A DNA stretch of 64,000 nucleotides from Parerythrobacter aestuarii (lineage in GTDB: Bacteria > Pseudomonadota > Alphaproteobacteria > Sphingomonadales > Sphingomonadaceae), in contig NZ_JARBWD010000001.1 of assembly GCF_030140925.1 (NCBI RefSeq), positions 1,736,001 through 1,800,000 on the forward strand. Direction: 5' to 3'. The notes below the pieces were generated by a model. That model made no database searches, had not been told where the DNA came from, and saw only the letters and a list, made by a program, of their open reading frames with translations. Within the stretch, counting starts at the first letter, position 1, and the number at the start of each line of letters is the position of its first letter. Position numbers and translations under genes: made by a program. This document shows positions 57,001-58,363 of the stretch, piece after piece.

Positions 57001-57486
57001 CTAAAGCCGCTCCGCGATTGCTAGTACCAGCAGGATCAGGGAGCCAGTACACGCTATCGTTCGGACGTGGTTCCAGATCATCCATTTCCGTAGGTATTCC
57101 GCCCACATTTCGGCTCCTTCTTGACCGTCTGCAGGGGTCGCTTCCAACCGATTGTTGAGCGGGACATTTCCGGCGATGGTCACGACAAACATCCCCACGA
57201 CGTATGCCGCACTGCCCGACAGCGTCCAAATCGCTCCTGCGGCCCCAAGATCCAAGGCGGCGATAACCACCAGCACCGCACAGGCGATCGTGCTGACAAA
57301 GAAAATCGGCAAGAATGACGACTTGACGATTATCCGGTTGATCGATTGCATCGCCAGCATCCCAGCGGGAGCTTTGATCGCATCGAGCGACCTCATGACG
57401 AAGGCAGAGAAGGTGAAAAACACGCCTGCCATCAGTCCTGCCGAAATGGCGGCAATCCAAAGCAAGATGTCACTCAGATAAGCCAT
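57001..57486 (-). CDS. DUF1772 family membrane protein
   Basis: A 161-residue protein with four membrane helices. FSAFVMRSLDAIKAPAGMLAMQSINRIIVKSSFLPIFF and NVPLNNRLE are the DUF1772 blocks, a family that includes anthrone oxygenase-like enzymes in fungi; bacterial members are uncharacterised. ATG at 57486 (MAYLSDILLWIAA) is used. It is separated from mutL by 57 bases, convergent. Confidence 0.85.
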   Translation of the reverse strand: MAYLSDILLWIAAISAGLMAGVFFTFSAFVMRSLDAIKAPAGMLAMQSINRIIVKSSFLPIFFVSTIACAVLVVIAALDLGAAGAIWTLSGSAAYVVGMFVVTIAGNVPLNNRLEATPADGQEGAEMWAEYLRKWMIWNHVRTIACTGSLILLVLAIAERL

Positions 57487-57591
57487 GCAATGCTCCACAG
57501 TCGCGCGCGAACCCTCGTGAAGCTAGCAAACCTTCAAGGAACCGCAAATTCGGGGGCAAATCACCGGTGACCGTGATCGGCGTAGCGTTTC

Positions 57592-58329
57592 CTAGAGACT
57601 GGGCCTGACAATCATCCACACCGCCATCCCGATCATCGCCACGTTCTCAGTCAGCGAGACAAAGCCTAGCGGCACATTTGCGCTGCCGCCGACGCAGGCG
57701 CATTTGATGTCGCGCTGCTGTATGTAGACCGCGTAAAACACGCTGATCGCTCCGATCATTCCAATGGTGAAAGCGATGGGGATGGACAGCCACGGCAGCA
57801 CGCGCCCGGCCATCAGCACGGCGGCCAATGCCTCCAGATAGGGATAGGCATAGGCATACGGCACCCAGCGCTTGCCCAGCAGGTCGTAACCGACGAACAT
57901 GCTCGAGAAAGTTTCGACATCCTGCAGCTTGAGCATGGCCAGCATCGCCATGGAGAAGGCGACAAACCATTCGGCCGTGCGGATTGTCAGCGGCGTCCCG
58001 AACACAAACTGGCTTAGCGAGAGGGCGAGGGCGAGGCCGACCGCGAACACCGCCAGAACCGGGCGGTAGCTCTTGGCATTCGGATCGCGTGCCTTGCCGA
58101 AATGCTCGCGAAGGGCGTCGTAGCCACCGACACGCTCACCTCCGATGAACGTCTGCGGCGTTGTCTGGACCCCGTGCTTGTCCTTGAACGCGTCGGTTTC
58201 CTCACGTGTGGTGAGGGGATGATCCTCGACCTTGAAGCCCTGGCTTTCGAGCAGCCATTTCGACTTGATGCCATAGGGACAGACATGTTTGTCCATCACC
58301 ATGCGATAGAGCTGGGCAGTCCTGGTCAT
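57592..58329 (-). CDS. Glutaredoxin-MauE fusion protein
   Basis: A 245-residue protein. Residues about 1-80 form a glutaredoxin domain with active-site motif VCPYGIKSK (single Cys, so monothiol type), TTPQTFIGG (cis-Pro loop) and GGYDAL. Residues about 90-245 form a MauE/DoxX-like four-helix membrane domain with MLKLQDVETFSSMFVGYDLL, and CACVGG near the C-terminal end. The fusion suggests electron or thiol transfer at the membrane, as MauE supports disulfide formation in methylamine dehydrogenase. Its promoter carries a CsoR/FrmR-type palindrome. Its start gives little or no leader. Confidence 0.82.
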   Translation of the reverse strand: MTRTAQLYRMVMDKHVCPYGIKSKWLLESQGFKVEDHPLTTREETDAFKDKHGVQTTPQTFIGGERVGGYDALREHFGKARDPNAKSYRPVLAVFAVGLALALSLSQFVFGTPLTIRTAEWFVAFSMAMLAMLKLQDVETFSSMFVGYDLLGKRWVPYAYAYPYLEALAAVLMAGRVLPWLSIPIAFTIGMIGAISVFYAVYIQQRDIKCACVGGSANVPLGFVSLTENVAMIGMAVWMIVRPSL

Positions 58330-58338
58330 GGCCGCGAT

Positions 58339-58363
58339 ATATACCCTATGGGGGTATATTCAA
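58339..58363 (-). promoter_or_regulatory. Promoter with CsoR/FrmR-like operator upstream of grx-mauE
   Basis: ATATACCC-TATGG-GGGTATAT (58339-58359) is a perfect 8-bp inverted repeat with a GC-rich heart and A/T flanks, the shape recognised by the CsoR/RcnR/FrmR (DUF156) repressor family. It lies between a -35 TTGAAT (58358-58363) and a TATATC-like -10, and 10 bases before the ATG at 58329. A DUF156 gene is not in this window. Confidence 0.6.

Follow-up and report, generated by a model that had tools for sequence, protein, structure and literature searches.

In the window, the 64,000-nucleotide stretch of Parerythrobacter aestuarii DNA that was analysed, the gene under study codes for a glutaredoxin fused to a MauE membrane domain, and a palindrome lies within the 52-bp gap between this gene and ychF (Table 1). 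Pfam searches placed a PF00462 glutaredoxin domain at residues 13-67 (28.2 bits; cutoff 22.9) and a PF07291 domain, which assigns the membrane part to the MauE family, at residues 116-241 (51.4 bits; cutoff 27). The N-terminal glutaredoxin, with the active site HVC17PYG, is followed by five predicted membrane helices, and C210-A-C212 occupies the loop between predicted helices 4 and 5.

Table 1. Positions in the window of the fusion gene and of the putative elements of its promoter
Feature	Position	Strand	Basis and remarks
Glutaredoxin-MauE fusion gene	57592..58329	minus	245 aa; Pfam domains, AlphaFold2
Putative operator (CsoR box), ATATACCC-TATGG-GGGTATAT	58339..58359		Fits published box TATACCCnnnnnGGGTATA (PMC5057107)
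-35-like hexamer TTGAAT	58358..58363	minus	Sequence; overlaps outer end of operator
-10-like hexamer TATATC	58336..58341	minus	Sequence; overlaps other operator end

Residues C17, C210 and C212 are the only cysteines of the protein, and alignment of 39 homologues indicated that all three are invariant, as are P18, G20 and P58. The CPYG motif is a single-Cys site, and the glutaredoxin features TTPQ (with the cis-proline) and GG are intact in the homologue alignment. The AlphaFold2 model (mean pLDDT 87.3) shows five long hydrophobic helices besides a domain with the glutaredoxin fold. Foldseek matched it to glutaredoxins (best E 1.2e-3) and, together with PF00462, identified the thioredoxin fold, the active-site Cys-Pro and the TxP loop; the fold search returned only glutaredoxins and GST-like partial matches among solved structures, and no counterpart of the MauE part. 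In the homologues, the second and fourth loops are rich in Lys and Arg (2.13 and 3.05 per sequence), which the other loops nearly lack (0 to 0.46). The N-terminus and the CxC loop are therefore expected in the cytosol, and C17, C210 and C212 are all predicted to lie on the cytosolic side of the inner membrane. Since the model and the positive-inside count place C17 and C210/C212 on the same side, a DsbD/Scs-like electron relay across the membrane from cytosol to periplasm is not favoured. Downstream of the fusion gene, on the minus strand at 57001-57498, lies a gene for a PF08592 DUF1772/anthrone-oxygenase-like protein (64.7 bits), which also gave a below-cutoff match to NCBIfam ChrI, a chryseobasin maturation helper; no link between this gene and the operator was seen. 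Anthrone_oxyd is listed among the proteins following MNIO genes in one report (PMC12452194).

The palindrome is a perfect 8-5-8 inverted repeat with arms at 58339-58346 and 58352-58359. It is unique in the window even when up to 3 mismatches are allowed, against 0.01 occurrences expected from shuffling. Read on the minus strand, TTGAAT is followed by the palindrome, TATATC, six bases and the ATG (58329). The original prediction had placed the palindrome between the -35 and -10 elements; this geometry is correct, except that the outer arm bases of the repeat overlap both hexamers, whose spacer is 16 nt. Since TATATC stands only six bases before the ATG, the mRNA of the fusion gene is probably leaderless. 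Positions 58340-58358 (TATACCC-n5-GGGTATA) overlap the promoter and fit exactly the CsoR box consensus of Bradyrhizobium, for which Cu-dependent regulation was demonstrated and where the csoR mRNA was mapped to start at the ATG and is thus leaderless (PMC5057107).

The whole genome (3,018,242 bases in three contigs) contains exactly one PF02583 (DUF156) gene, G000:C2:15369-15614 (96.1 bits), located on a contig other than that of the fusion gene. The pattern ATACCC-n3..7-GGGTAT occurs at two places, the window site and C2:15304-15320, which are the identical 17-mer read in opposite directions and found nowhere else in 3.0 Mb; allowing three mismatches added one further weak place. The second site lies in the gap between csoR and copA and precedes the csoR match by 49 bp. 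Here csoR is divergent from copA, coding for a multicopper oxidase, followed by copB, and the promoter region with the palindrome is common to both directions. The view that the palindrome is a CsoR/FrmR-like operator is thus supported by a DUF156 repressor gene with the same putative operator sequence in its own promoter. In the alignment of the deduced repressor with its best match, the CsoR structure 4m1p, the YC, H and C residues coincide; the repressor combines PF02583 with a Cys ... His-x3-Cys arrangement in which Tyr precedes the first Cys, and it is genetically linked to the copper-handling genes copA and copB. CsoR of Mycobacterium tuberculosis binds Cu(I) through two Cys and one His (PMC10141476). 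Taken together, the single DUF156 gene, the identical 17-mer at csoR, the fit to the published box and the copper-type residues argue that the palindrome is very probably a CsoR operator, and the fusion gene very probably a remote member of the copper regulon of CsoR.

Under this regulation, the CsoR-type repressor would occupy the operator at low copper and block the overlapping -35/-10 promoter, and binding of Cu(I) at its Cys-His-Cys site would release it. The fusion gene would then be transcribed, probably as a leaderless mRNA, alongside csoR and the divergent copA/copB. Its product would be an inner-membrane protein whose glutaredoxin domain and C-x-C loop face the cytosol. Copper toxicity strikes cytosolic thiols, and glutathione matters. 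The invariant and predicted cytosolic C17, C210 and C212 suggest that the protein handles thiols or Cu(I) at the inner membrane in a glutathione-dependent manner; it may carry out glutathione-based reduction or de-glutathionylation of copper-damaged thiols, or deal with Cu(I)-thiolate at the membrane. We tentatively name thiol repair as its exact role, with rather less than even confidence.

The same regulation might instead serve a protein that mainly handles Cu(I) as a membrane-bound buffer, shuttle or efflux partner and is not a thiol-redox repair enzyme, with M10-x-M12-x2-H15-x-C17 and C210-x-C212 binding Cu(I) or Cu(I)-glutathione. The Met/His/Cys cluster and the CxC are invariant, the only three cysteines are all predicted to be cytosolic, and genes for copper ATPases, DUF305, DUF411 and CopB neighbour the fusion gene at other loci. 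Against this, the Met/His positions fall in a strand and an active-site loop that are usual for a glutaredoxin, and the TTPQ and GG features noted above are intact, which leaves a mainly Cu(I)-handling protein possible but rather unlikely.

With respect to the signal of the CsoR-type repressor, the original prediction had listed copper, nickel, formaldehyde and sulfane sulfur, of which copper alone was retained. FrmR is without the second Cys ligand, RcnR and InrS possess an N-terminal His ligand, and CstR is without the His ligand between the two Cys. None of these patterns was found in the repressor, which has both site cysteines and the His and no His in its first 16 residues. An operator of the FrmR, RcnR/InrS or CstR type, answering formaldehyde, nickel/cobalt or sulfane sulfur, would agree with the use of related GC-rich palindromes across the DUF156 family, and a glutaredoxin would suit thiol stress; it is nevertheless very unlikely, given that the sole DUF156 protein of the genome has CsoR residues and adjoins copA/copB, and sensing of reactive sulfur, formaldehyde or nickel was rejected on these residues and neighbours. 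Among 60 csoR loci of relatives (a few of them duplicates), the C-H-C pattern was present in all 60, the box lay within 150 bp upstream of csoR in 54 and copA was adjoining in 50. Copper is most likely the signal of the repressor because of its Cys-His-Cys residues and the kept copA neighbours at csoR loci. Side responses to zinc or cadmium are possible by analogy with those reported in Bradyrhizobium (PMC5057107).

Eighty related loci were fetched, and the palindrome was kept in the promoter of 28 of them, nearly all at the same distance. In these promoters the arms and the TTGA and TAT-A hexamers are retained and the 5-bp centre is variable, TTGA being at the same -35 position in most of 29 promoters. 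The distance from the site to the ATG is constant (11-12 nt); shorter distances in some loci reflect an in-frame GTG or TTG taken as the start, with an ATG at the usual place. A DUF156 gene was identified in 21 of the 22 tested genomes with a palindrome-bearing homologue, the exception being that of locus L038, whose site is poorer.

A survey of 100 genomes of the same family yielded 56 places with the palindrome. Of these, 34 stood upstream of csoR at a distance of at most 100 bp, four immediately preceded a lone fusion gene (the window site included) and one preceded another copA/copB pair. About 17 of the 56 adjoin no csoR, fusion gene or copA, and a reversed control pattern gave about 18 places over the same genomes, which indicates a background of about that size. 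The csoR and fusion genes lie within 2 kb on one strand in 17 of the 100 genomes, often 12-45 bp apart, and several of these loci also carry a divergent copA/copB. The closeness of the unassigned places to the reversed control would suit a chance match or vestige exerting no control over the fusion gene, which is very unlikely given the promoter position fixed in about 28 homologues despite a variable 5-bp centre, the presence of an identical core at this genome's csoR and the csoR-fusion operons of other genomes. Two single places deserve mention: a third palindrome in genome G006 (L175 3139-3155) is upstream of a second copA/copB and far from csoR, and one in genome G078 (L176 2582-2598) lies between a porin-like gene and a small membrane-protein gene beside a cytochrome-oxidase gene; the latter may be coincidental or may mark another copper-controlled gene.

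The fusion gene was present in 49 of the 100 genomes. Both csoR and the fusion gene occurred in 29 genomes, each one alone in 20 and neither in 31, a weak association (one-sided p = 0.04) that is explained by other regulators driving the fusion gene elsewhere; this co-occurrence was not relied on as proof of the csoR-fusion link. The genomes of L061, L063 and L074, three orphan homologues next to a divergent MerR-family gene, contain no DUF156 gene. The other palindrome-free genomes possess one in 22 of 25 cases, so that lack of csoR does not account for the missing site. Many Erythrobacteraceae homologues are without the palindrome despite csoR in the genome, which shows that CsoR copper control is not universal. 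On a quick tree, the distribution of the site called for about 12 gain or loss events, of which well-supported branches forced at least 6; for the MerR arrangement, at least two changes were needed. Control of the fusion gene was rewired repeatedly.

A MerR-family regulator divergent to the fusion gene was observed at L061, L063, L070, L071, L073, L074 and L075, and further at L082, L083, L085, L225, L227, L233 and L238. The DNA-binding helix of this MerR-type neighbour is of the mercury type, and its Cys-x7-Cys pair has the spacing found in CueR (both seen in the L061 and L082 regulators); it is without Cys82 of MerR and in most cases is accompanied by a mer-like operator, CCGTAC-n4-GTACGG. 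The fusion gene was also found in 294 plasmid records, of which 156 are predicted to be conjugative. In ten of the 294 records, sampled at even steps, cueR was close by in five, a csoR-type gene in one, a divergent MerR-family gene in three and DUF305 only in one. In the csoR case, a Sulfitobacter plasmid, a separate palindrome, TATACCCCATATGGGTATA, lies between csoR and the DUF305-fusion operon. On plasmids, DUF305 genes are repeatedly found next to the fusion gene or to the copper regulator that goes with it (L228, L229, L235, L237, L239 and L240), and in several of these loci DsbB, CcdA or DsbD-like genes lie near. The linkage of the fusion gene to unrelated copper sensors provides independent support for a copper role.

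On this basis we lean slightly towards regarding the fusion as an undescribed and widespread alphaproteobacterial copper-tolerance protein, a membrane-anchored enzyme or Cu(I) carrier linked to glutathione, which on chromosomes and conjugative plasmids would be controlled by at least three kinds of metal regulator (CsoR, CueR and a MerR type whose cysteine pair resembles that of CueR). The search for earlier descriptions covered the open-access literature; no description of a glutaredoxin-MauE protein in a copper response was found there, and nothing relevant was found on MauE with copper or CsoR. The original prediction of an undescribed metal or reactive-sulfur response therefore holds in part: the fusion gene is likely a metal-response target and the fusion seems undescribed as such, while the CsoR switch is of a known kind (PMC5057107) and reactive sulfur is unsupported. 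A dedicated copper-controlled membrane glutaredoxin, from a family common on chromosomes and plasmids, is thus seemingly new to that literature. The fusion protein, the putative effector, is uncharacterised, and the proposed regulation yields a direct and easily testable prediction.

Comparison with known systems indicated partial likeness in each case. The C-terminal membrane domain belongs to the same Pfam family, PF07291, as MauE of methylamine utilisation, but here a glutaredoxin is fused to it, copper regulation is proposed and no mau gene was recognised among the neighbouring ORFs. The ScsABCD suppressor of copper sensitivity (e.g. PMC8900818) likewise comprises copper-linked thiol-disulfide proteins with a membrane partner, by analogy only, since Scs works on periplasmic disulfides while the cysteines of the fusion protein are all predicted to be cytosolic. 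GigPABT of Cupriavidus metallidurans (PMC10304878) and the DoxX-containing bufferin clusters (PMC12452194) link DoxX-related small membrane proteins to copper stress, and an interplay of Gig with glutathione was proposed (PMC10304878); in the accessible parts of these reports the DoxX-like proteins, GigT among them, are separate and have other partners, and neither a glutaredoxin fusion nor CsoR control is reported. The RicR regulon of M. tuberculosis (reviewed in PMC10141476) also combines a CsoR-family repressor with several scattered targets, including a multicopper oxidase and membrane proteins, but no glutaredoxin-MauE protein is among the listed targets. The csoR-cueA divergon of Bradyrhizobium liaoningense (PMC5057107), also an alphaproteobacterium, shares the box TATACCCnnnnnGGGTATA overlapping the promoter, the divergent csoR and, as is probable here, the leaderless transcript; its partner gene is the P-type ATPase cueA, whereas here the partners are copA, coding for a multicopper oxidase, with copB, and a distant glutaredoxin-MauE gene.
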